The notes below the pieces were generated by a model. It had not been told where the DNA came from. It saw nothing but the letters and a program-made list of their open reading frames with translations, and did no database searches. A stretch of DNA of 43,980 nt from Chlorobiota bacterium (GTDB taxonomy: Bacteria; Bacteroidota; Bacteroidia; Bacteroidales; JAADGE01), in contig JAADDR010000054.1 of assembly GCA_013153865.1 (NCBI GenBank), forward strand, positions 1 through 43,980, written 5' to 3'. Within the stretch, counting starts at the first letter, position 1. Each line of letters opens with the position of its first letter. This document shows positions 1-19,145 of the stretch, piece by piece. The position numbers were made by a program, and so were the translations under genes.

Positions 1-3000
1 AACAACTTATTTTCAGTTTTCAACACAAAAAAAAGTTATCCGGATTTCAACAACCGAGAAGATGCAATTCTTTTTTTTCTTAAAGAAAGCCGTAAACCGG
101 AATTTTTATTGCAACTGAAAACCGAAGAAGAAAAAAACAAATGGCTTAATATGGTTTTATGCGGAATAAAAGACACGCAATACGGTTTACTTTCCATGAT
201 AAAACAACGCGTTAAAGAACATCCGGATAAAATATTATTCAAAGGAAAACGCAAATCTCAAAATTTTGAATGGACATACGAACAAGTTTTTCATTCCGTA
301 AAAGAAACAGCGGCATTTATATACAAAATAAAACCCGAAAAACCGCGAGTAGCTTTGTTCATGAGCAACAGCGTAGAAACTGCCGTAACAGATTTGGCAT
401 GTTTGTCTTTTGATATTTTTAACACGCCTCTCAATATTCATTTTAACAAAGACACATTGTCTTACATAATCAAAAAAACAGATATAAACATTATTATTAC
501 GGATACTCCTCAAAGACTGAGAATTGCAGCATCCGCAATAAAAGACATTGATAAAGACATTAAAATCGCGGTAACCGACATAAACTCGTCAAAACTTAAA
601 GATGCTGATTTTTTTTTAGCGAGAGAACGTAAAAAAATAACTCTGAAAGAAGCCGAAAAAATACTTGCCGAAAGAAAAATAAAACCGATTAATCACGTTG
701 TTACGACCATGTTTACATCCGGAAGCACAGGCATGCCAAAAGGTGTTTCGTTTTCGATGTATAACATAATAAGCAAACGATTTGCAAGAGCATTAGCATT
801 ACCGAATGTAGGAAATAACGAAAAATTAATTTGTTACCTGCCTTTATTTCATACATTCGGCAGATATTTAGAACTTACGGGAAGTATTTTCTGGGGAGGC
901 ACATACGTATTTGCCGGAAATTCATCTTCGGATACTCTGCTGTCGTTATTTCCTAAAGAAAACCCCACCGGTTTTATAAGCGTTCCGGTAAGATGGATGC
1001 AACTTTATGAAGCCTGCATAAAAAAACTTGACGGAACGGAAAATAAAAAAGAACAAGAAGACGCGGTAAGGAGCATTGTCGGAAAAAATTTACACTGGGG
1101 ATTATCCGCCGCCGGTTATCTTGACCCGAAAATATTTCGTTTCTTCCATAAACACGGTATATCTCTGAACAGCGGCTTCGGAATGACCGAAGCAACCGGA
1201 GGGATAACAATGACACCCTCTTTCGAATACAAAGAAAACTCCACGGGAATTCCGCTTCCTGGTATCAAAACACAACTGAAAAAAAACGGAGAACTGCAAA
1301 TAAGCGGTCATTACGTCGCACGATATCTTGAAGATGCCGGACCGGACGATATTATCCCTTATCCTGAAGAAGAAGATTATAAACTGCCGACAGGCGATAT
1401 ATTCAGAATAGATAAAGACGGGCATCACGAAATAATAGACCGTGTTAAAGACATATATAAAAACAATAAAGGTCAAACGGTAGCACCTCTTAAAATAGAA
1501 AAGAAATTTACGGGTGTTCCGGGCATAAAAAAAACTTTTTTAGTCGGCGACGGTAAACCTTATAATGTTTTGCTTATTGTTCCGGACAAAAACGACCCCG
1601 TAATGAAAGCTTCATCTAAAGACGAAAATATAAACGAATATTTTCATCAAATAGTTATGACTGCCAATAAAGATCTTGCTCCTTACGAAAGAGTTATAAA
1701 TTTCAGTATCCTTGAAAGAGATTTCTCGAAAGAAAAAGGAGAACTTACGCCTAAAGGATCTTTTAAAAGAAAAATCATAGAAAAAAACTTTGCACCTCTA
1801 ATCAAAGACTTATACAAATCAAATCATATAACTTTTAATTTTAAAAGCTTTAAAGTATTAATACCGAGATGGTTTTACAGAGATATCGGAATATTGGAAA
1901 CCGACATAATAAAAACAAAAAAAGGACTTTATAATAAAACCGACAACAAATATCTTCGTATCGAAAAAACCGACAAAAAAAATATATTCACTATAGGAGA
2001 TTTAAATTATACACTCAATGATCCAACTATTGATTTAGGACGTTTAATAAGACAACCTAAATTATGGACAGGAAATCCGGAATTGATAAACTTTTCGCCG
2101 TGCAAAGCAAGTTACGATACACCGTTTAAAAATTTTGCTCCGCAAATAAGTCTGCCGGAAAACAATACTAAAACATACAAAACCGAAGACATAGAACATT
2201 TGCCTCCTCTCGGCGATTTTGATCTTATTGTACTAAACCGGTTAATTTCGCAAACATTACACGGCGAAACAAAAACGGTACTGAAAAGTCTTAAAGAAAT
2301 CGAAACCATATTCGGAGAATACGAAAAAAACAAAGCCGAAATTATTCGCCGGCGATTAGAAGCTTTAGCATATCACAAAAACGAAAACATACGCATAGAA
2401 GCATACAGAATTTTACTGACAAAAGACCCCGAACCGGATTTTGCGGAACTTCTTCCGGCATTTATAAACTCGGGAAAAACTTTCTTAAACGAATACAGCA
2501 TTAACCTTCTGGCAAAATCGTCTTTTTCTCTCAGACAATTAGATATACTGAGAAAACGAATGTTTATTTACCGAACAACCATTAACTGGCCTGCCGATAA
2601 AAACACGATAAAACAATTCGATAATATTTTTAAACTTTTACTTAAATTCGGCATCAATCACCCTAAATACTATAAATCGCTGAGAGCAGAATTTGCATCA
2701 TGGATTTTACTCAAAAAAGAACCTGTATTATCAAAAAAAGCAAAAAAATATTTCTTTGAACTTTACGAAGGATTCGAAAAATATATCACAAAAAAATCAG
2801 GAAAAATAACTGAAAACAAATTAGCGGAAAAACTCATATTCGATGACGGCATTACCGATAAAGACCAAAAAGAACTTATCTCGAAATTAGCCGCAAGCCA
2901 CACCCTTAAACAAGCAATATTTCTGATTTACGACGATTTCAACTTTAAATTCGAAAACGTTCCGGAAAAAGGAATATGGGTATCGCGAATTAAAAGCTAT

Positions 3001-4521
3001 CGCGACACGCGACATTACAGAATGAGCATAAATACTTTTAAAGGAAAACATTACAACCTTCATATAAGCATAGACAAAACACTGAAAACATCAAAAGGTT
3101 TGGAAACACTGTTCAGACAAATTGCTTTGGCGGGATACCCGTTCGATTTACCGGTAGTTCCGCGTTTCGGATGCAGCAATCACTCCGAAAAAATATCAAT
3201 ATCAAGTTATTTAAGCATGCTTACGGCATGGGATAAAATTCGAACTCTTGCCGAAGTTCAAGCATCCGGACATGTAGAACAGGCAAACACCTGGCGAAAA
3301 ATATATATCAGATCCGTAAGTGCATTTTACAAAGCATGGGATTACGGAGGCAGAGAAATATTACCCGGATTTATCTCACCCAACAATACCGCTCTCCCCG
3401 AAAACGACTTCTCCGACAATGCTCTTATTATTTCCCTTTCCGGATGGAGATATATCGAAAACAAAAGCAGCTTATTTTCGGCAATTTATCAAAATTACTA
3501 TCGGCAAGTTACGGCTCATTATCCGATACTGAAACGTTTTCTGAAAATAAGATGGATTTTTCACGCATGCATAGAAGCTTTCGGAAAAGAAAAAGGTTTA
3601 AAAATATTAAAAGAACTTTACGAAGAACTTAATAAAACAAAAACACATACCGAAAACGAAACAATTATTAAAAAAAATCTTAACGATTATCTTAAAACAT
3701 ACAAAAGCAAAGAATATCTGCCTCTGGCTCTATTTAACGCAATAGACAGATATACGGGATGGAAAAAGAAAAATCCGGCGGCAACCCCGGCTGCAAAACA
3801 TCAAACAATATCGGAATTGTACGATTTATACGCTTTAAAAAAATATCCGGAAATTGTAAGATACCGGTTTTACAGAGATACATATTTTAAAGAAGCCGAA
3901 GATGACGTAAAACATGCTTTCGATAAATTATTGGATAAAATGACCGAAAACATAAATATGCTTCCGGTTCAACTTACGGAATTATCCGGTTTACAAGAAG
4001 CTCTGAAAAATAAAACCGATAAAAAGATTTTTGAAAAAATGGTTTTTCCCGACATAAAAAGAAAACAAAAAATCGATATAATGACCGTAGGGAAAAAAGA
4101 CGAAGAACATGTTATAGTAAAATCAATTTTGAAAGACAAAGACAAAGTGGAATACATAATGAGAGAACCGCTCGAAGCAGCGGAAGTAGGAGAATTATAC
4201 AAACTGTTTTACAAAGAAAATTATCCGAAAGAAATATCCAAACCCGACAAACATTACATAGTTTTAGACTCCAACGAATTACTTATAGGAGGACTATGTT
4301 ACAAAGAACTTGAAGAAAACGTAGTATTAATAGACGGCATGGCAGTAACATCTACACTTCAAGGAAAAGGAATAGGTTCCGCCATGATGGAAGATTTCTT
4401 TACAAGAATGAAAATGAAAGGCAAAAAAATAATAAAAGCACACTTTCTGTTCGGCAATTATTATCTTAAACATAATTTCGTAATCGATAAAAAATGGGGA
4501 GCACTGGTTAAAGAATTATAA
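1..4521 (+). CDS. 5'-truncated multidomain protein: AMP-forming (long-chain type) acyl-CoA ligase + long unassigned region + C-terminal GNAT acetyltransferase
   Basis: Frame 1 is open to the left edge (NNLFSVFNTKKSYPDFNNREDAILFFLKESRKPEFLLQLK...), so the listed start at 109 (a TTG) is probably not the real start. AMP-binding motifs TSGSTGMPKG, GFGMTEATGG, DRVKDIYKNNKGQTVAPLKIE and LTPKGSFKRKI. GNAT motif A QGKGIGSAMM near the C-terminus. Stop TAA at 4519-4521. Confidence 0.9.
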   Translation, partial: NNLFSVFNTKKSYPDFNNREDAILFFLKESRKPEFLLQLKTEEEKNKWLNMVLCGIKDTQYGLLSMIKQRVKEHPDKILFKGKRKSQNFEWTYEQVFHSVKETAAFIYKIKPEKPRVALFMSNSVETAVTDLACLSFDIFNTPLNIHFNKDTLSYIIKKTDINIIITDTPQRLRIAASAIKDIDKDIKIAVTDINSSKLKDADFFLARERKKITLKEAEKILAERKIKPINHVVTTMFTSGSTGMPKGVSFSMYNIISKRFARALALPNVGNNEKLICYLPLFHTFGRYLELTGSIFWGGTYVFAGNSSSDTLLSLFPKENPTGFISVPVRWMQLYEACIKKLDGTENKKEQEDAVRSIVGKNLHWGLSAAGYLDPKIFRFFHKHGISLNSGFGMTEATGGITMTPSFEYKENSTGIPLPGIKTQLKKNGELQISGHYVARYLEDAGPDDIIPYPEEEDYKLPTGDIFRIDKDGHHEIIDRVKDIYKNNKGQTVAPLKIEKKFTGVPGIKKTFLVGDGKPYNVLLIVPDKNDPVMKASSKDENINEYFHQIVMTANKDLAPYERVINFSILERDFSKEKGELTPKGSFKRKIIEKNFAPLIKDLYKSNHITFNFKSFKVLIPRWFYRDIGILETDIIKTKKGLYNKTDNKYLRIEKTDKKNIFTIGDLNYTLNDPTIDLGRLIRQPKLWTGNPELINFSPCKASYDTPFKNFAPQISLPENNTKTYKTEDIEHLPPLGDFDLIVLNRLISQTLHGETKTVLKSLKEIETIFGEYEKNKAEIIRRRLEALAYHKNENIRIEAYRILLTKDPEPDFAELLPAFINSGKTFLNEYSINLLAKSSFSLRQLDILRKRMFIYRTTINWPADKNTIKQFDNIFKLLLKFGINHPKYYKSLRAEFASWILLKKEPVLSKKAKKYFFELYEGFEKYITKKSGKITENKLAEKLIFDDGITDKDQKELISKLAASHTLKQAIFLIYDDFNFKFENVPEKGIWVSRIKSYRDTRHYRMSINTFKGKHYNLHISIDKTLKTSKGLETLFRQIALAGYPFDLPVVPRFGCSNHSEKISISSYLSMLTAWDKIRTLAEVQASGHVEQANTWRKIYIRSVSAFYKAWDYGGREILPGFISPNNTALPENDFSDNALIISLSGWRYIENKSSLFSAIYQNYYRQVTAHYPILKRFLKIRWIFHACIEAFGKEKGLKILKELYEELNKTKTHTENETIIKKNLNDYLKTYKSKEYLPLALFNAIDRYTGWKKKNPAATPAAKHQTISELYDLYALKKYPEIVRYRFYRDTYFKEAEDDVKHAFDKLLDKMTENINMLPVQLTELSGLQEALKNKTDKKIFEKMVFPDIKRKQKIDIMTVGKKDEEHVIVKSILKDKDKVEYIMREPLEAAEVGELYKLFYKENYPKEISKPDKHYIVLDSNELLIGGLCYKELEENVVLIDGMAVTSTLQGKGIGSAMMEDFFTRMKMKGKKIIKAHFLFGNYYLKHNFVIDKKWGALVKEL

Positions 4522-4622: not shown

Positions 4623-7600
4623 CTATCTCAACAGTGTAACACTTCCGTATTTCTTATCAGGACGACCGTTTTTGTAAATAACCGAAACTTTCCAGACATA
4701 AACGTCTTGCGGTGCCAATACGCCGTCCACATAACCGTCCCAACCTATGCAAATATCATTACTTGTAAATATTTTTTCTCCCCAACGGTTGTATATTTCA
4801 AGTTGATAATCTACTACACCGTATGCTTTTGGATAGAAAACATCATTCAAATTATCATTATCCACAATATATTTATCTCCGCAAGGATATACACCTCCGT
4901 TAGGACCGTTGGGATTAGGCGTAAATGCCGTCGGAAAAACAATCATACCGGAGTCTTGAACAATTACGGCATCGTGAATTGTTTTTGACTCAAAACAATC
5001 ATGGTCGCTCCAAACATTTAAAGTTATATCATACAATCCCGGAGACGAATACAGGTGCATCGGATTTTCTTCGGCAAGTTCGGGATTTGTATCTAAAGTA
5101 GAACCGTCGCCGAAATCCCAATAATATCTGCTTCCGTAATCGGAATAATTATAACATGATATTTGTTGATCCGGCAACATTACCAATCTGGGCGACACAT
5201 CAAAATCAACAACCGGTCTCGGATAAACAATAACGGTATCGGTTCTTGAATAATACGGATTCGATTGAGTTCCGCAAGCATCATTCCATGCAATTATTGT
5301 AGGATGATATACTCCCGGTTCGTCATAAACAAATACAGGATTGTTTTCTCTTGTAAATGTATCTGTATAATTCTGGTCGTTAATATCATAGAATCGCCAT
5401 AATACCGAATCGGCATAATAAACTCTGTCGTCAAACTCTACAAGTAAATCCTGACATCCTTGTGCTATCAAAGAACCGTCATCGTAAGAGAACGGACAAG
5501 GCGGCAATACCACAACCGTATCTCTGTAAACGCCGTCGCATTGTCCGGAACTTGTTCCGGTAAGAGTTATCACAAATGTTCCGGGTTCGTCGTATCGGAA
5601 ATCAAACGATCCTACAAACTCAGTATCATATCTGTTTTCGTTATTCCAACCGAAATCCCACAAATAAGAATCCAGATTAGTATCACTTCGGTTTTCGAAT
5701 GTAAATATCGCATTAGGTATTCTTCTTTCGTGAGAACCACCTATTTGGAATTCCACATCCGGAACGGCATAAGCCGTAACCGTTGATTGGAAAGTATCGG
5801 TACATTGTGTTTCGTAATCTATCGCAACAAGATAAATTGTATAAACGGAATCAGTACTTCCCGTATTAGTAAATACGTGAGTAATATCATCATTAACATC
5901 ATAAGTCGTTCCTACATAATTATCTTCCACTCTCCAACGGAATTCGTCGGGTTCGGTTAATCCGGGATAATAATCCGATGTGTTCGTAATAGTAACGGTA
6001 TCCGGAGCGCAGAATGTCGTCGGGTCTGTTTCGAATCTTGCAATAGGCGGTAAATTATATCTTATCATAACGGTATCCCTTGACTGACAATTTCCGTTAT
6101 CTACAAACCATTCGAAATAATTATCTCCGGGTTCGAGATCGTTTACAACGGTATTCCAAAGAGTATTGTCAACTATTGTTCCTCCTCCGAGGCCTACAAC
6201 AGTCCACACTTCATTAGCACCTTCCATATGCTGAGCATTCATTTGATGAGTTCTTTCGCACAATACTGCATCATCTCCGGCATCTACAAATATGGAATCG
6301 TTTGTTATAAGCACGTCGTCATATGCCGAGTAACCTACAAAACTTACAGTCCAACGATATACATTAGTTCCCTGATTAATGCCTCTTACTATTGTCTTCG
6401 GGTCGTGAATATCGTCAAATACTCCGCCTCCGCTTACAATAGACCAAGTTTGAGAACTTGCTCCTATTTCCGAACGTGCGTTAAGTTTAGCCGTATCGGT
6501 ACAAACTATTTGGTCGGCACCGGCATCCGGTATAAAGTTGGCAACTGTTATTGCTACATCGTCAGAAGACGAACAACCGTTTGTTTTGGTAACCGTCCAT
6601 GTAAACCGGTTTACACCTGTAGGCATATTATCAACATAAGAAGTCGGACTTGTAAGGTCTGCTATATTTCCGCTTCCGGAAAGTATAGACCATTGTCCGG
6701 TACCGTCTGCCGGCAATTCTGCTTCAAAATAAGTTGAAGTAGTAAGAGGCGGTAATGTTTGGTCTTCTCCCGCATAAGCATCAAAATCATTATTTATAAT
6801 TTGAACCAAATCGCCTCCGTTATCACATCCGTTTTCGTAAACGGTCCAGCGGAAAGTATTAACTCCTCTTTGTAAATTTGTTACAAGACTGTTAAATGCC
6901 GAAGGAGTTTGAACCACACCAGGTCCGCCTGCCGTTGTCCATATTCCGTAACCTCCGTTTTGAGGTTGGTCTCCGGAAAGATTTGTATAATCTTGACAAA
7001 CCGCCTGGTCAGCTCCCGCAGTAGCTGTTACCACATTATTAGTAATTACCACGTTATCGGCATCGGTACAAGTTAAGTTGGTAACAGTCCAAGTTAAAGT
7101 ATTTGTACCTTTTACCAATCCGGTAACGGTAGAGCCGTAATAAGTCGGGTCGGTAACCGTTCCCGCTCCCGCCGTTATAGTCCAAACACCCGTTCCGGCT
7201 ATCGGATTTTCGGCAGAAAGCGTAGCTTCCGAATGACATACAAATTGGTCGCCTCCGGCATGTGCATGAACTAAATTATTTGTTATAATAACTTCGTCCC
7301 AAGCCGAACATCCGTTTTTGTAAACAGTCCAACGGAAAGTATGCGGCGAATTATCCTGCAAACCGTTAACAACCGTTGTATTTGAGGTAGGTGTAACAAT
7401 TGTTACTCCGGGTCCGGAGAAACTCCAAATACCCCATCCGGGTGACGGGTCTTGTGCTTGCAATGTTACTGTTGTATCGCAAACTTCTTGGTTAAATCCC
7501 GCACTTGTGTAGAAAGAGTTTTCGGAAACTTGGACTTCATCTTGGTCGGTACATCCGTTACCGGAAACAGTCCACCTGAACACGTTAACTCCGGCACCTT

Positions 7601-7718
7601 GTCCGGTAACAACCGTTTCGTTGTTGCTCGGAGTTAATATCGTACCCGAACCGCTTACTAATGTCCATAATCCGCTTTCGCCGGGATATAATTCGTTGGC
7701 AACAAGATTAGCATCATT
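4623..7718 (-). CDS. C-terminal part of giant secreted repeat protein (Ig-like repeats, PKD-like domains, T9SS type B-like C-terminal sorting domain); no convincing start of its own
   Basis: Listed ORF 4623..7583 begins at a GTG in the middle of a repeat (..GVNVFRWTVSGNGC..). Same frame as the 7719..21911 ORF and continuous up to the TGA. C-terminus FPTAFTPNPNGPNGG...LNDVFYPKAYGVVDYQLEIYNRWGEKIFTSND...GWDG...APQDVYVWKV matches the gliding-motility-associated C-terminal domain pattern. Stop TAG. Confidence 0.85.
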   Translation of the reverse strand, partial: NDANLVANELYPGESGLWTLVSGSGTILTPSNNETVVTGQGAGVNVFRWTVSGNGCTDQDEVQVSENSFYTSAGFNQEVCDTTVTLQAQDPSPGWGIWSFSGPGVTIVTPTSNTTVVNGLQDNSPHTFRWTVYKNGCSAWDEVIITNNLVHAHAGGDQFVCHSEATLSAENPIAGTGVWTITAGAGTVTDPTYYGSTVTGLVKGTNTLTWTVTNLTCTDADNVVITNNVVTATAGADQAVCQDYTNLSGDQPQNGGYGIWTTAGGPGVVQTPSAFNSLVTNLQRGVNTFRWTVYENGCDNGGDLVQIINNDFDAYAGEDQTLPPLTTSTYFEAELPADGTGQWSILSGSGNIADLTSPTSYVDNMPTGVNRFTWTVTKTNGCSSSDDVAITVANFIPDAGADQIVCTDTAKLNARSEIGASSQTWSIVSGGGVFDDIHDPKTIVRGINQGTNVYRWTVSFVGYSAYDDVLITNDSIFVDAGDDAVLCERTHQMNAQHMEGANEVWTVVGLGGGTIVDNTLWNTVVNDLEPGDNYFEWFVDNGNCQSRDTVMIRYNLPPIARFETDPTTFCAPDTVTITNTSDYYPGLTEPDEFRWRVEDNYVGTTYDVNDDITHVFTNTGSTDSVYTIYLVAIDYETQCTDTFQSTVTAYAVPDVEFQIGGSHERRIPNAIFTFENRSDTNLDSYLWDFGWNNENRYDTEFVGSFDFRYDEPGTFVITLTGTSSGQCDGVYRDTVVVLPPCPFSYDDGSLIAQGCQDLLVEFDDRVYYADSVLWRFYDINDQNYTDTFTRENNPVFVYDEPGVYHPTIIAWNDACGTQSNPYYSRTDTVIVYPRPVVDFDVSPRLVMLPDQQISCYNYSDYGSRYYWDFGDGSTLDTNPELAEENPMHLYSSPGLYDITLNVWSDHDCFESKTIHDAVIVQDSGMIVFPTAFTPNPNGPNGGVYPCGDKYIVDNDNLNDVFYPKAYGVVDYQLEIYNRWGEKIFTSNDICIGWDGYVDGVLAPQDVYVWKVSVIYKNGRPDKKYGSVTLLR

Positions 7719-10700
7719 TCAGCAAGTTATAACATCCGCACCCGCCAATGCTTCAACCATATTATTTGTAATAACAACATCATCGTAATTAGAGCATCCT
7801 TCTTTTGTTATCGTCCATCTTAATGTATTGTCTCCTTTTAACAAGCCGTAAACTCTTGCCGTAGGACTTGTCGGGTCGTCAAACGAGCCGCCGCCAGCCC
7901 AAATACTCCAAGCACCGGTACATCCTTGTACAGGAATATTTCCGAGCAGGTCTGCAGAATCCGTACATATTACGTTCGGACCGGCAACACTTGCGCTTGC
8001 ATCATAAAGATTATTAGTTACAACCAAATCGGCATAATCAGAACAAGTTCCGTTACTGATTGTCCATCTGAATTTATTTTCGCCTTTATTCAAGTTTGTA
8101 ACTTCAGTATTATATAAAGCTGTATTTGTAATAATTCCGGTTCCTGCGGCAACGGTCCATACTCCGCTTTCGCCGGACTGAGGTTCATTACCGTTAAGAT
8201 AAGCTGTTGTACCGCAAACACTTATACTGTCACCAACAACAGCTGACACAGAATTATTAGTAACAGTAACTATTGCCGATGAAGTACATGTTCCGTTTGA
8301 AATAGTCCATCTGTATTGATTTATGTCAGGTCCTATATTTCTAACCGTAGTAGTATTTCCGGTTGAATTATCGAAAATACCGCTTCCTGCGGCAACGGTC
8401 CATACTCCGGAACCTGTAGTAGGCGGATTTCCGCTTATAACGGTATAATCCAAGCATATTTCCTGATCTGAACTTACCGTTGCCGGAGACGGAGTATTAT
8501 CATAAATACTTACATCATCGGAATTAGAACATGTTCCTCTGGTAACAGTCCATGTCAGTCTGTTTTCTCCTCCGGATAATCCCGAAACCGAAGTATTATA
8601 TAAAGTCGGGTCGGCAAATATTCCGCTTCCTCCGGTTACCGTCCACATACCTGTTTCTCCGGCACCGGGTTGGTTTCCGTTTAATGCGGGATAATCAGAA
8701 CCGCAAATTTCATCGTCCATACCCGCCGAAGCAAATACAAGTTCATTCATTATCAATACATCGTCATAAGATTCGCATATTCCTTCGGTAACTGTCCACC
8801 TGAAAGTATTGCCTCCCGAACCGAGACCTGTTACCAATGTATTGTAATTACTCGGGTTTGCAATTATTCCGGCACCTCCGAGTCTTGTCCATATACCTTC
8901 TCCTACGGAAGGATTATTTCCGGAAAGGACAACCGTTCCGTCGCAAACCGTTTGGTCGGCACCTGCATCGGCAGGAGTAGGTGTATCATTGGAGATTGTA
9001 ACTACATCCCATGCCGAGCATCCTCCTTTTGTTGCAGTCCATTTAAAGATATTAGAACCGGATGCAAGATTTCTTACAACCGTATTATATAAGGTTGCAT
9101 TATCAAATACCGGAGTTCCGGCAGAGTTAACGATAGTCCAAATTCCTGTTCCGGGAGCGGGATTATCGGCAGATAAAACGGCTGTATCCGTACAGAGCGA
9201 TGCATCTAATCCGGCATCAGTAGTTATGGTATTGTTATCTATAACGATATCATCATAAGTAGAACATACGGAGTTTGATATTGTCCATCTGAATGTATTA
9301 GATCCCGAACCTATATCATAAGCCGTAGTAATGTTAGAGGTAGGATCCGCAATAGTAGCGGTTGCCCCGAACTCTTTAGTCCAAATTCCGGTTTCTCCCG
9401 AACCGGGGGCATTACCTACAAGAGTGTAAACAGAACTGCATATTTCAACATCCGGAGAAACTAATGCTACCGTCGGAGAAAGATTTGTTATTACAACCGT
9501 ATCGGCAGCAGAACAGGTTCCGTTTGATAAAGTCCATACTAATCTGTTATCGCCTTGGACTAATCCGATAACATCGGTATTATATTGAGTGTCGTTAATA
9601 AATGAAGCTGTTCCTCCGGCTACGGTCCACAATCCTGATTCGCCGGTATGAGGAGCCAATGCTGCAAGGGTTGTTGATGTTCCGCATATCGAACGGTCAA
9701 CACCTGCATTTACATCGGTAATTTCATTATTGTTTATGATTACCTCATCGGAATTAGAACAAGCGCCTTCCGTAATAGTCCAAGTAAATATATTAACTCC
9801 TTTACTTAATCCCGTAACGGTTGAATTATAGAAAGTCGGATTTGTAATTACTCCGCTTCCGCCGGAACGAGTCCATATTCCGGAAGCAGAACCCGGATTA
9901 TTTCCTGCAAGTGTTGTATTATCCGAACATAAATCTTGGTCTAATCCGGCATTTACGAATACTTCGTTGTTTGTTACCACTACGTCGTCATAATCCGAGC
10001 AACCTGCGTAGCTTTGATGCCAACGCAAAGTATTCGGTCCGGGAGCCAATCCGGATACGGTAGTATTAAACATTGAAGCATTTGCAAAAGTTCCCGAACC
10101 TATTGCTTCCCAATATCCTGTTCCGGGATAAGGATCCGCCGCCATTAATGATGCTGTTCCGTCGCATGTTGACATATCGGTTCCGGCATCGGCAACGACA
10201 TCGTTAAATGTTATTGTTACTTGATCTTCCGCCGAACAAGATGCGTTTGTAACAGTCCAAGTAAATATTGCGGAACCGTTTGATAAGCCGGTAACCGTAG
10301 TGTTCGGCAAGGTACTGTTTGTAATTACTGCAGTAATACCTCCTGTTTGAGTCCAAGCACCTGTTTCTCCGGCTGCGGGACTGTTTCCTGATAATGTAAC
10401 GTTATCAACACAAGTTGATTGGTCGGGTCCGGCATTTACAACAGGCAGATTATTGTTTATTGTAACATCGTCATAATTGGTACATCCTGATTCCGTAACC
10501 GTCCATCTGTAAATATTTGTACCTTGTCCTATATCGGAGACGTAAGTTCCGTTGGAAGAAATATCGGTAAATGTTCCGCTGCCCGTAACAACCGACCAAA
10601 CACCCGATCCGGGAGCGGGATTATTTGCTCCCATATACGTAAAGTTATCACACAAGTCTTGCGTTGCTCCGGCATTTGCAACCGGATTTACATAGGTTAC

Positions 10701-13700
10701 CGTAATATTTGCATCATCTGAACAATCTCCGTTATCTATAGTCCAAACGAAAGTATTATTTCCTTCGGCAAGATTATGAGCATCCGTGTTGTATAAAGTA
10801 ACATCATCAAAAGTTACTCCGGGAGTAAATGTAGTCCAAATACCGTTTTCACCCGGAGCGGGATTATTTCCCGTTAAGGTTATATTTCCGTCGCAAGTTA
10901 AAGCATCGGCAGCTGTTGCACTTACCGATCTGTTAACTATAACAACATCGTCATATACCGAGCAACTTCCTTTTGTTACCGTCCAACGGAAGGTATTGTT
11001 TCCGTTAGGTAATCCGGAGATGCGCGTTGTTTCCGACAATGAATTGTCTATTACAACACCGCCGATTCCCATATATGTCCAATATCCTGTACCTTGGAAA
11101 GGATACATTGCCGTAACCGGCGTAGCATTTAAGGTTGTAGTATCCGCACAAAGTAATTGGTCAGGACCTGCTTCAGCCGCAACAATATTGTTAATAATGG
11201 TAACATCGGCCGAACTGCTGCAAGATCCGTTAGATATAGTCCATGTGAATATATTTACTCCGGGATCCAGTCCTGTAACTAATGTTTGATAATTTGTCGG
11301 ATTTGCAAATGTCCCGTTTCCCGTATTTAATGACCAGAGTCCTGTTCCGTATGAAGGAACATTACCTTGAAGGACGACCGAACTTGTGCAAACTTCTCTG
11401 TTTGCAGGTCCGGGAGCCGTAATAACGGCAATATCCGGATTTGTATTTTCTATTGTAATATCGTCGTAATTAGTACATATATCTCTTGTAACCGTCCAAC
11501 GGAAAACGTTATCGCCCTGTGCCAATCCTGTAACCGTTGCATTATATTGTGTTGAATTGGAAATAATACCGCTTCCTCCTATAAGAGTCCAATAACCTGT
11601 TCCGGGAGCCGGGTCGTCGGCATTAAACGTATAAGAATCTACACAATCCGATACGTCCGGTCCTGCACTTAAATCGAAATTATTATTAGTTACTGTTATT
11701 GTGGTATTATCGTTACAAGTTCCGTTATCAACAGTCCATTTCAATGTAGTGGTAGATCCGTTCGGCACACCGGTAATTGTCGTATTATATAATGTACTCG
11801 GTGCCGTAACGGTTCCTCCTCCGGCTATTATTTCCCAATATCCCGTACCTCCGAAAGAAGCAGGGTCATTACCGGTTAAAGTAAAGTCTCCGTCGCATTC
11901 GCTTAAATCGCTTGCAACCGCCGTAACGGAGTTGTTTATTATCTGAACCAAATCAGAAGCCGAACAGTTTCCTTTAGTTACGGTCCATTGGAATGTTGTT
12001 GTACCGCTTTGCAAAGCGGATACCTGAGTATTTGTCAATAAAGAATTTTGTATTATTGCCGAACTTCCGCTTAAATCGGTCCAATATCCCGTACCCTGTC
12101 CGGGATATATTACGGAAGGATCCGTGGCATTTAAAACGGTATTGTCGGTACATAATGTTTGGTCAGGACCGGCTACCGCCGCAACTTCATTATTTGTTAT
12201 AGTAATAATATCTTCGCTCGGAGCACAAGATCCTCTTTCTATAGTCCATTTAAATATATTATCTCCGGGAGTTAATCCGGTAACATTCATAATATAAGAA
12301 TCCGAAGCATCAACAAATGTACCTCCGCCGCTGATTACCGACCAAAAACGATTATCTCCGTAATACGGTACGGGTTGATTTGCCGTTAAAGTAATCGTAC
12401 CGTCGCAAGTTTCTGTATCTGCAGGACCGGTAATCAGTGCCGTACTCGGAGAATTATTAATAATATCGACATCAGCCGAGTTTTGGCATCCGTTTCTGTT
12501 TACCGTCCATGTATAAGTATTTGTTCCTTGCAATATTCCGGATACTACGGCAGTATTTGAAGATATGTCGCTGAAAGTTCCCGCACCTGCGGCAACAGTC
12601 CAATATCCGGTACCTGTCAAAGGATCATCGGCATTCATTGTTGCGGTATTTTGACAAATTGTTTGTGTAGTTCCGGCACTTAAATTAAAATTATTATTTG
12701 TAACGGTAATAGTAGTATTGTCGCTGCAAGTTCCGTTTGTAACGGTCCATCTTAAAGTTGTTACCGCTCCGTTCGGAACTCCTGTTACGGTAGTATTATA
12801 TAAAGTACTCGGAGCTGTTATTGTTCCGCTTCCGGCAACTATTTCCCAATATCCCGAACCTCCGGTATAAGTAGAAGGATCGTTACCGGTTAACGTAAAG
12901 TCGCCGTCGCATTCTTCCAAATCCGTTGCTACCGCTTCAACGGAATTATTTGTAATAAGAACATCATCGGATGCCGAACAAATACCTTGAGTAACAGTCC
13001 ATGTAAAAGTTGTTGTTCCGATAGGTAAACCGGTAACTTGAGTGGTCATTACCGAAGGATCAACTATTACGGCCGTATTTCCGGTAGTATTTGTCCATAT
13101 TCCGGTTCCTTGATTAGGATATATAACAGAAGGATCGGTAGCATTTAAATTAGTGTTATCCGCACAAAGCATTTGATCGGCTCCGGCAACTGCCGTTACT
13201 TCGTTATTAATAACGGTAATTTGATCTTGCGATGTACAAGTTCCGTTAGATATAGTCCAAGTTAAAACATTATTTCCGGGGTATAAATTATTAACGGTTG
13301 TTTGATAATTTAAACTGTTCGTAAAATATGCACCCGTCGGAGATGTTGAAATTGTCCACACACCGGTACCGAATACCGGGTTGGTTCCTTCAACGGCAAT
13401 CGAGTTTGTACAGACCTCTCTGTCGGAAGGAATGGGAGTAACAATTGTTGCAACGGTAGGCAAGTTATTTATTATTTTCACCGAATCAATTGCCGTACAA
13501 CCTCTTACAACATCAGTAACAGTCCAATAAAATACATTGTCTCCGGGGGTTAAACCCGTAACGGTTGAATTGTACAGAGTAGGAACGGTAACCGTTGCTC
13601 CTCCTGCAACTACCGACCATATTCCCGAGTATCCCGCACCGTGATCTTGAGCTCCGAGAGTTGCCGTTGATGAACATAAAGCTTGGTCGGGTCCGGCGGA

Positions 13701-16700
13701 AGTCGAAAATTCTCCGTTATCTATCGTAATATCTATGCTGTCTCTACATCCTGCCGTATTACTTACCAACCATCTGAAAGTATTAACTCCGGTTCCGAGA
13801 TTTGTTACGGAAGAAACGTTTAATGTCGGATCCGTAATTACGGGTGAGCCGGAAGACCCTATCAATGTCCATAACCCGTCTGCAGAACCGGGATTATTTC
13901 CGTCAAAAACAGCACTGTTCGTACAAACAACTTGGTCTGAAGCATTTGCATAGACCGCATTATTTGTAACATTAGCATCGTCAGAATCGGAACATCCTCC
14001 GAGAGACATAGTCCATCTGAACGTATTAAGTCCTTGTGTTAAGTTTGTAACTTTAGAATTATAAAAAGTCGGATTTACAACAGTACTTGTTCCCGTAATT
14101 ACTGACCATGTTCCCGTTCCTTGATACGGGAAATTCAGATTCGGGTCGGCAGCCAATAAATCGGTACTGTCGGCACAAACAAATTGCGGCAATCCGGCTT
14201 CAGCTATTACCATATTATTAGTCAATACGATATTATCGGATTTAGAACATCCGTTGTTAGTTACCGTCCATACAAATTCGTTATTTCCGGGTTGTAAACC
14301 TGTAACTGCTGTATTAATGTCGGTAGGATCAACAATTATTGTTGAAGCACCTCCGGCGTATATACTCCAAATTCCCGTACCTATCGGCGGAGCAGGGCTA
14401 ACCGATATAGTTGAATTTACACCGCAAACTTCTTTGTCTGCTTCCATGGTAAAGTCGTCCGGTTCGTTATTTATAATTTCAACTTCGTCGTCGGCAGAAC
14501 AATTTCCTTTTACAATATGCCATCTGAATCTGTTTTGTCCTTGTGCTAAATTTGTAACACCGGAATTATATAAAGTAGGAGTTGTAACAGTTCCTCCGCC
14601 AAAAGTAGTAAACCATTGTCCTGTTTCTCCGTTTGCCGGCACACCTCCGTTTAAAGTCGCTGTATTCGTACAAACACTGAAATCGGGGCCTGCATTGGAT
14701 GTTACGGTATTATTATCAACTTGAACCAAATCCGATGCATTACATCCGAAACGCGTAACATGCCATTCGAAGACGCTGTTAGGTTTCGGAATTCCCGTAA
14801 CGGCTGTATTGTATAAAGTAGGATCTTGAATTGTTCCTCCTCCGGAATATATAGTCCAATATCCTGAAGCACCTCCGACGGTTCCGGGCTGTTCTGCCGC
14901 AAGAATTATATCTCCGTCGCAAGTTTCGAGGAGGTTGGGATCAGTATTGACATCAGCATCTATCGTAAATTCATTATTCGTAATATCCAATGTACTTGAA
15001 GCATTACATCCTCCTTTTGTTATAGTCCACGTAAGATTGCTTATTTTAGAACCTACATTATTTAAGTTTCTGACAGTTGTATTATATAATGTGGGATTAT
15101 CAAATGTAACCGTTCCGGGAAATACCGACCATTGTCCCGTCGGGAAAGGAGCAGAACCGGTATTGTAAATATTCGGATCCGTAGCCGATAATACATACCA
15201 ATCTTGGCAAACAGCACTGTCGTTATCCGCAACACCGTGTAATATAGCATCTTGTCCTATTCGGTCATCGGCATCAGACATCACCATATTATTAAATACC
15301 GTAATTGTATCCGAAGACGTACATCCGTCATTATCTATAGTCCAAACAAAATATCTTGTCCCGAGACCTATGCCGGTAACATTAGTAACATTATCAGTCG
15401 GGGAAGCTATAGTTCCCGAAGGAACCGGGACTTCAGTCCAAAGACCTTGCCCCCATATCGGAACATTAGCTTGTAATGTCGTATAATCTTCGCATATTTC
15501 GTACGAATCGGGTAACGCGACTACCGAAGTTGTGGGTATTCTGACTTGAACAACAACTTGGTCGGAAGCTGAACACGTTTTTCCGTTATGTGTTGCGGAA
15601 ACATTCCAAGAATAAATATGGTCGCCGTTTTGCATTCCGGTAACAAGCGTATTATAAAGTGTAGGAGTTACAATAACGGACGGTCCGGGATTAATAACCG
15701 GAGACCAATATCCTGACATAGGCGGATTAACTTGTGTAGCGCCTAAATTATAAGTTGCTCCGGGTCCTTCGACACCGCAAACGAAGCCGTCGGAGCCGGC
15801 TTCGGCAACAACAGTGTTATTAAATACCGTCATGGTATCGGTTAATTCACATTGTCTGGTTATTCCTGCAACATAATCGCTGAAATCATGAACAGAATGC
15901 CATATGAAAGAAACTTCCGTTTGTTGGGGAATTCCGGTAACCGAAGTATTTGTAAGTGATGTATTTTCGAAAGTTACGATACCCGAAGGCCAAGCCGACC
16001 AATAACCTGAATAATATCCTTCTTGCCAGATATCGTTAGGCGGTACGGGGTCTTCAAAATACCAATGTCCCGTTACATTATTGGCATTTAAAGATGTAGA
16101 ATCATCACAAATTGTTTGGTCTAAATCGGCATTAGGAGCAGGCGGCAACAAATTCCAAACTACTATATCATCAGAGTTGCTGCATATTCCGTTAGTAAGA
16201 GTCCAAGTAAACGTATTTCGACCGGTAGACAGTCCTCTTACAATATCATTAGCCAAAGTAGAAGTATTTGTTCCTGAAGAAACGAAAGTTCCCGAACCTC
16301 CGAACCAAATACCCGTTGCACCGGCAGGAACATTAGCCGATAATTGTGCAGTATCGGCACACATATATATATCCGCGCCTGCATCCGCAACGATACCGCT
16401 GTATGTTACATTTAAAGTATCCGTTAAATCACAAACCAAAGGATTGGAATCTGTATATCCGGCATAAGGTCCTGTATATTCGTTAGTTACAGTCCACAGA
16501 AATGTATTTAAGCCGGAAGTTAAGTCTTGTGCCAAAGCATCGCAAGCAAAGAAAGTACAAGAATTTCCGACAATATGCGCACCTCCGGTAAGTACCGTCC
16601 AAGAAGCATCTGTATATCTTGCCGGAACATTTGCGGAAAGAACGGTATGGTCCACACAAACTTCCTGATCGGGACCGGCATCGGCATTAGAAGGACGCCC

Positions 16701-19145
16701 GCTGTATATATAAACATCATCAGACATCAAACAATTTAAATCATGGTTAATGATTGTCCACCTGTAAATATTAGTATATGCAGCCATATCCCTTACGGTA
16801 GTATTATGATCCGTAGGATCATCGAATACTCCGTTTCCGAAAATAGTAGTCCATTCTCCCGTTGTGTTATACACATGAGGCGGAGAGGAAAAAACAGTAT
16901 CGGGATCTGTTCCGTTTAAAGTATAATAATTTTCACAAACGGCATCATTTGTACCCGCTTGTACATCTTCAAAATCACCGAGAGAAGTTATTTCCACCGT
17001 ATCCGTAAGTTCGCAAACTATAGGATTCCCCTGAGAATCGGTAAAATTATTTCTTTTATGCCATACAAACTGTGTCATTCCGTCTTGTATAGGTTCCACA
17101 TGTGTATTAAAAGGCATATGAGTATCATTATCCGGTATTACATTGCCTGTTTCGGGGTCGTAGAAAGTTCCCACATCCGGTAATTGTTCCCACCAATGTT
17201 CTTGAGTACATGAAGCTTCGTCCAAAGCATCGAGGTTTACAACATTATCACAAACCGTTGTATCTATACCGGCATCCGGGGCCTCCGGTAAACCGTTAAG
17301 AACTCTGACTTGATCCGTAGATTCACAAGTACCTCTTCTGATAACCCATTCAAAAACATTAACGGCATTAACATTTGTCCACCAATCCGGGGTCCAAGGA
17401 GTACAGTTATAATCAAGATTTGATACTGAAGAATTTGCCAAAGTCGGGTCGGTAATAGTTGCTCCTCCCGCAATTACTCGCCAAAAACCGATTTCTCTGG
17501 TTGCATCATAATTACTTCCGTTTAAGTTGGGTAAATAAGTACTGCACACAATTGTATCATTCCCTGCATCGGCAGGTGTCGGAATGCTGTTTATTACTGT
17601 TATGGTATCCGAATCGGTACAAATTCCGTTAGAGATGGTCCAAATAATATTATTGGCTCCGGGATCCAAATTACTGACAGTTGTATTCCAAGATAAAGGA
17701 TTGTCAATATGAGAACCTCCCGATTGTACTGTCCAAAATCCGTTTGCAAAAACAGCAGGATTTGCTATATCTTGAGTTGAAGGATTATTTGCAGTAATTA
17801 AAGGAGAAGGATCCGTACATGATATTAAAGGATCTGTAGTTGAAATAACGGCATCAACCGACATATTATATATAGTAACAATATCGTCGGAAGAACAAAT
17901 ATCATGAGATACCGTCCATTGTAAAACATTTATTCCTCTCTGAAGATTTGTAACCAAAGTTGTATTTGAGTTAGGATTAACGATATTTCCGCTGCCGGTA
18001 GTAAAAGACCAAAGTCCTGTTTCTCCCGCCTCAAGCGGTGTAGCTGCAAGACTGTAATCATTTACGCATATAGTATCGTCAAGTCCGGCATCCACAACCG
18101 GAGGATAATAATAATTTACAGTAAGATCTGCCGTAGATTCCGGACAAGTTCCGTTTGTAATATGCCATGTAAATAAGTTAGCGCCTTCTTGTAAATTAGA
18201 TACACCTGTAGTAGCGTTATTAGCATCTGAAATAACCACACCTGCCGTAGAAGTTGTCCAATATCCTGATTCGTCAGGATCTGCGGCATCCGCCGGAGTA
18301 GCAATAATAGTATATGTACCGTCGCATGAAGTACTAGGGTTCGGAGTTGTTATTGTTGCCGTTGTAGGAATATTATTTTGAACATCAACACTTGCTTGTG
18401 CCGAACATCCGTTTACGGTTACTGTCCAAATATAGGTATTAACAACATCTTGATTGGAACCTGTAACTGTAGTGGTAGGAGCTGTAGCATCAGCGAAAAC
18501 TCCTCCCCCGGCTCCGACAGTCCAAACTCCCGTTCCTCCCAATGCCGCAGGGTCATTACCTTGAACAATAAAAGGTTCCGAACATATTTCAGCCGGAGCT
18601 CCGGCAGTTGCCCATACTTCTATAACGTCCACATTCATAATTGCATAATCCGAACATGTTTCTTTAGTAACAGTCCAACGGAATTGATTAGTATTGTAAT
18701 TTAAACCCGAAACGGCGGTTGTTCTGTTTGTAGGATTAGCAATAACCGGAACCGGTGAAGGAGAACCTTCGACGGTCCAAAGTCCTGTTTCTCCCGGATT
18801 TAAAGCATAATCGGCTTGCAGAGTCGCATTAGTTCCGCAAACATTTGTAATATCCGTTACCGAAGCAACAACGGTATTATTAACAATCACAACATCGTCC
18901 CAAACTTGGTAGCTTCCGTCCGAATTTGATAAAGTCCAACGGAAAGTATTACTGTTGTTCGGAGCAAGTCCGCTGTTAAGTCCGGTAACTAAAGTATTAT
19001 AAAGCGTAGGATCGGCAAAAACGCCTGCTCCGTCTATAACAGACCAAGTTCCGGTATATCCGCTCGGAGGTTGGTTTCCGTTAAGAACATATGAATTATC
19101 CACGCAGGTAGTGTCATCTACGCCTGCATTAGCCGTAACACCCGA
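6052..19145 (-). repeat. Tandem array of about 51 protein-coding repeats (about 80 aa / 240 nt each, Ig-like, two Cys each)
   Basis: Hand-segmented translation. Recurrent ..DAG.D...C.., ..G.W.., ..P...NT.VT.L..G.N.F.WTVT.G.CS..D.V.I.NN. Count is approximate. Confidence 0.9.

Follow-up and report, generated by a model that had tools for sequence, protein, structure and literature searches.

The minus strand of the window (the whole 43,980-nucleotide stretch of DNA that was analysed) carries a giant reading frame of 5,762 codons. It starts with an ATG at position 21911, ends with a TAG at 4623-4625 and is split into 4,730 and 1,031 codons by an in-frame TGA at 7719-7721 (codon 4731), which is flanked by ...NNMVEALAGADVITC before and NDANLVANELYPGESGLWTL... 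after. The 5' part (7719-21911, minus strand) encodes 4,730 amino acids, comprising a signal-peptide-like start, cadherin-like domains and Cys-containing repeats. The 3' part (4623-7718, minus strand) consists of 1,031 codons plus the TAG, encodes the last repeats, a PKD domain and a type-B sorting domain of the type IX secretion system (T9SS), and bears the signature of purifying selection. The original prediction held that a single in-frame TGA splits one giant gene, and our analysis agrees: both parts share a frame and no other lesion was found. An additional frameshift, which would mean that the two parts are not one reading frame, was looked for and not found; throughout the 17.3-kb gene there is no frameshift, no second stop and no indel, and a frameshift pair or second lesion is rejected as an explanation. 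The downstream ORF had been given as 986 amino acids. Its frame was correctly assigned, but the true open frame runs for 1,031 codons from position 7718, the 986 residues being the portion after the first GTG.

By a simple pattern applied to the whole frame, the TGA falls in repeat signature 36 of 40. One codon is missing from an otherwise intact repeat, as had been noted. The residue lost is the one that follows the conserved Cys, a position occupied by D, G, T, S, V and others in the sister repeats.

What kind of protein does this gene encode? The N terminus, MKKFFVLFLFTLVGLSAEAQ, has the appearance of a Sec-type signal peptide when judged by eye. The upstream part contains Cadherin_3/4/5 and Big_9 domains followed by the Cys-containing repeats, each of ~82 amino acids. 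Near the C terminus lie a PKD_4 domain (PF18911; 4968-5132, minus strand; E 4.5e-15) and a CHU_C type IX secretion sorting domain (PF13585; 4635-4865, minus strand), which scores 33.5 bits against a cut-off of 27; the NCBIfam model Bac_Flav_CTERM (TIGR04131) reaches 25.2 bits, under its cut-off of 35. The last repeats, the PKD domain and the sorting domain all lie beyond the TGA, and the original prediction was right that truncation would cost the protein all three. Elsewhere the genome encodes SprA, a T9SS component (1,996.9 bits), and ten CHU_C domains above cut-off, so the T9SS secretion route is in place. Taken together, the signal-peptide-like start, the repeats, the CHU_C domain and the presence of SprA place the split gene, as judged from its sequence, among the giant T9SS cargos of type B, broadly like SprB.

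Without their C-terminal domain type-B cargos are not secreted, and they also rely on PorP/SprF-like partners (PMC12618676, PMC9143113). The protein resembles the SprB-like giant adhesins of Flavobacterium johnsoniae (PMC9143113, PMC12618676) in its very large size, its repeats, its apparent Sec signal peptide and its CHU_C domain, and in coming from a genome that has SprA. The likeness is one of general kind, not of homology to SprB. Unlike those adhesins, this protein has repeats that belong to a Cys-containing set common to this bacterial family, its gene is interrupted, and a scan of the flanking genes identified no member of the PorP/SprF-like family beside it.

Results

We searched for the gene in 60 genomes (this genome and its relatives) and found it to be widespread in both the genus and the family. 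Of its orthologues, nine cover the site, six from the same genus (G012, G001, G009, G004, G005 and G013) and three from the same family (G020, G015 and G016). In every one of them the frame is open at the position of the stop and the codon specifies Gly (six have GGA, three GGT). The whole gene is one frame of 5,612-5,778 codons in four species of the genus (G001, G009, G004 and G005). The codon is not covered in two further species (G003 and G008), whose contigs break within the gene, nor in the same-genus record Dive96_bin10.164, whose contig starts just past the site. Because all nine spanning orthologues are open with Gly, the stop is a private feature of this draft genome. This comparison with sister genomes, proposed with the original prediction as a check, is stricter than the comparison of sister repeats made there: the residue after the Cys does vary from repeat to repeat, as had been said, but at the orthologous repeat it is an invariant Gly.

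Further features were seen among the related genomes. In one related species a contig opens inside the codon that follows the position homologous to the stop (L028:1-3; JAJRUH010000005.1, which is G003:C98) and so lacks the upstream part; this is probably a coincidence, the assembly having broken within a repeat gene. On another contig of that genome (G003:C123:999-2390), a match to the protein's C-terminal part contains one in-frame TAA, another lone stop in a gene of this kind. Relatives of the giant repeat protein in one genome from another family of the same order (G055:C168, part of which is covered by L020, and G055:C131) have open frames of 8,359 and 7,914 codons.

We next consider selection on either side of the stop. 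Against G012, the nearest spanning relative, dN/dS is 0.080 upstream of the TGA (1,382 codons) and 0.084 downstream (1,031 codons). Derived amino-acid changes, polarised with G001, number 69 on the window branch and 69 on the G012 branch in the upstream part, and 28 versus 59 in the downstream part. We therefore see no relaxation of selection downstream of the TGA and no excess of amino-acid change on the window lineage. With equal dN/dS on both sides and no downstream excess of changes, these comparisons imply that the stop would be very young, polymorphic or not real. The branch is long, since dS against G012 is ~1.36 and near saturation. If all downstream changes on the window branch postdate the stop, the neutral period would occupy at most about 2-4% of that branch, a bound that is rough because dS is near saturation.

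Absence of the stop from the orthologues is what a pseudogene would show, and is what we observe; the relaxed selection or further lesions that mark an established pseudogene are not found. The lack of both points to a recent nonsense allele rather than an established pseudogene, and the degrading locus suggested in the original prediction finds no counterpart in the data. The explanation that we consider probable is one very recent nonsense substitution, either already fixed in the strain that was sampled or still segregating within its population, in an otherwise intact giant adhesin gene. A recent nonsense mutation had been among the explanations first offered, and it fits a stop that is private in a gene that is otherwise intact and under selection.

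The main rival, which we regard as unlikely, is that a sequencing or consensus error introduced a single wrong base and that the actual gene is intact. Such a base-call error, also offered originally, fits in that the rest of the gene looks functional, with purifying selection upstream and downstream of the TGA and no further lesion along its 17.3 kb. One base suffices to turn the Gly codon of most relatives into the stop. In addition, the assembly is a draft: its 2.55 Mb lie in 202 contigs, and its completeness is 92.5%. It is probably a MAG, and a MAG consensus may mix strains. Against an error, only ~4% of random substitutions in this gene create a stop, and no similar interruption was seen in a census of 605 kb (stretches of 40 contigs, the window and contig C19; 24% of the assembly). 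That no such interruption turned up there, and no indel within the gene, indicates that the assembly is not generally error-prone, although a single wrong base is still compatible with these observations.

The assembly's own sequence for the split-gene stretch is identical to that of the window. The stretch is single-copy: a search of the assembly found no second copy of it, nor any alternative strain contig with another codon at the site. In a codon-usage scan of the 605 kb the TGA site was the top match, and it was the only stop that has a strong coding signal both before and after it but no start codon for 45 codons. At the other sites with good scores on either side, a start codon lies within ~20 codons, as in neighbouring genes. 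As the sole top match that lacks a nearby start, the site reflects more than a chance adjacency of ORFs. A literature search on stop codons that interrupt giant genes in MAGs returned nothing to the point.

Could the stop be leaky? Readthrough of UGA would then be frequent enough for selection to go on acting on the full-length adhesin, and unsecreted and secreted forms would both be made. Selection downstream of the TGA is intact, as this requires, and some bacterial genes with in-frame stops do keep dN/dS below 1 (PMC7918605). But the youth of the stop explains the downstream selection equally well, so that selection is not usable as evidence of readthrough. Nor does the sequence after the stop form structure beyond chance: the 61 nucleotides from the stop onward fold no better than shuffles (z 0.13). 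We judge a leaky stop of this kind very unlikely. As an evolved device, the leaky readthrough of the original prediction is at odds with the relatives, none of which has a stop there, and programmed or conserved readthrough is rejected because the stop is not conserved and all nine orthologues have Gly. Were the stop real and leaky, a few ribosomes would go on to make the full-length surface adhesin and most would produce a periplasmic, unsecreted form; we give this outcome only a slim chance.

Phase variation often targets giant surface adhesins, and a phase-variable locus that toggles the adhesin on and off had also been suggested. Here it is extremely unlikely. The lesion is a substitution and is not accompanied by a slippage tract; no inverted repeats lie near the site, only diverged long direct repeats (70-72%); and no donor or alternative copy was found elsewhere in the assembly.

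Alternative decoding of UGA, as selenocysteine or through reassignment of TGA to an amino acid, is scarcely credible, the sole point in its favour being that the codon is TGA. The selenoprotein reading is rejected on all three counts: we found no tRNA-Sec above cut-off (the highest-scoring matches are ordinary tRNAs, among them those for Ser, Leu and Tyr), no SelB above cut-off (the best match is an elongation-factor-sized frame of 398 codons that aligns to the first 276 positions only) and no SECIS-like fold in the 61 nucleotides. A UGA-recoding genome is rejected as well, because TGA serves as a normal stop, terminating 33 of the 199 long ORFs in the 605-kb sample, and RF2 is retained (485.7 bits). 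No other gene in that sample is interrupted by TGA, and in the sampled contigs tRNA-Trp(CCA) is the only Trp-type tRNA seen, with no tRNA bearing a UCA anticodon.

Discussion

If, as we favour, the TGA is a very recent nonsense substitution, translation would end at codon 4731 and release a product of 4,730 amino acids. This product would enter the periplasm via Sec. Since type-B cargos need their C-terminal domain, a protein that ends at the TGA and lacks the C-terminal signal should not be exported by the T9SS and would probably be degraded. The 3' part would yield no secreted protein because it has no signal peptide. The adhesin would be effectively off, save for trace basal readthrough.

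A lone nonsense stop of this sort is an ordinary and already known phenomenon. It resembles the in-frame stops that Belinky et al. 2021 (PMC7918605) describe at the scale of population polymorphism, which are lone and short-lived and have flanks at low dN/dS; the main set of that study, in contrast, required a stop to be present in at least two genomes, and here it is present in one. If real, it would mean that a single lineage has naturally lost one giant adhesin and was sampled before any decay set in. Caution is in order: in a draft genome, a gene of 17 kb can occasionally be expected to show a single in-frame stop, whether through mutation, variation among strains or an incorrect base. If the locus were annotated as two genes, with no signal peptide on the second, a complete type-B T9SS adhesin would go unnoticed.

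A last observation concerns another frame. Positions 1-4521 of the window hold an open 5' frame with an AMP-binding acyl-CoA ligase-like part and a C-terminal GNAT acetyltransferase domain, between which lie ~790 residues that have no Pfam match.
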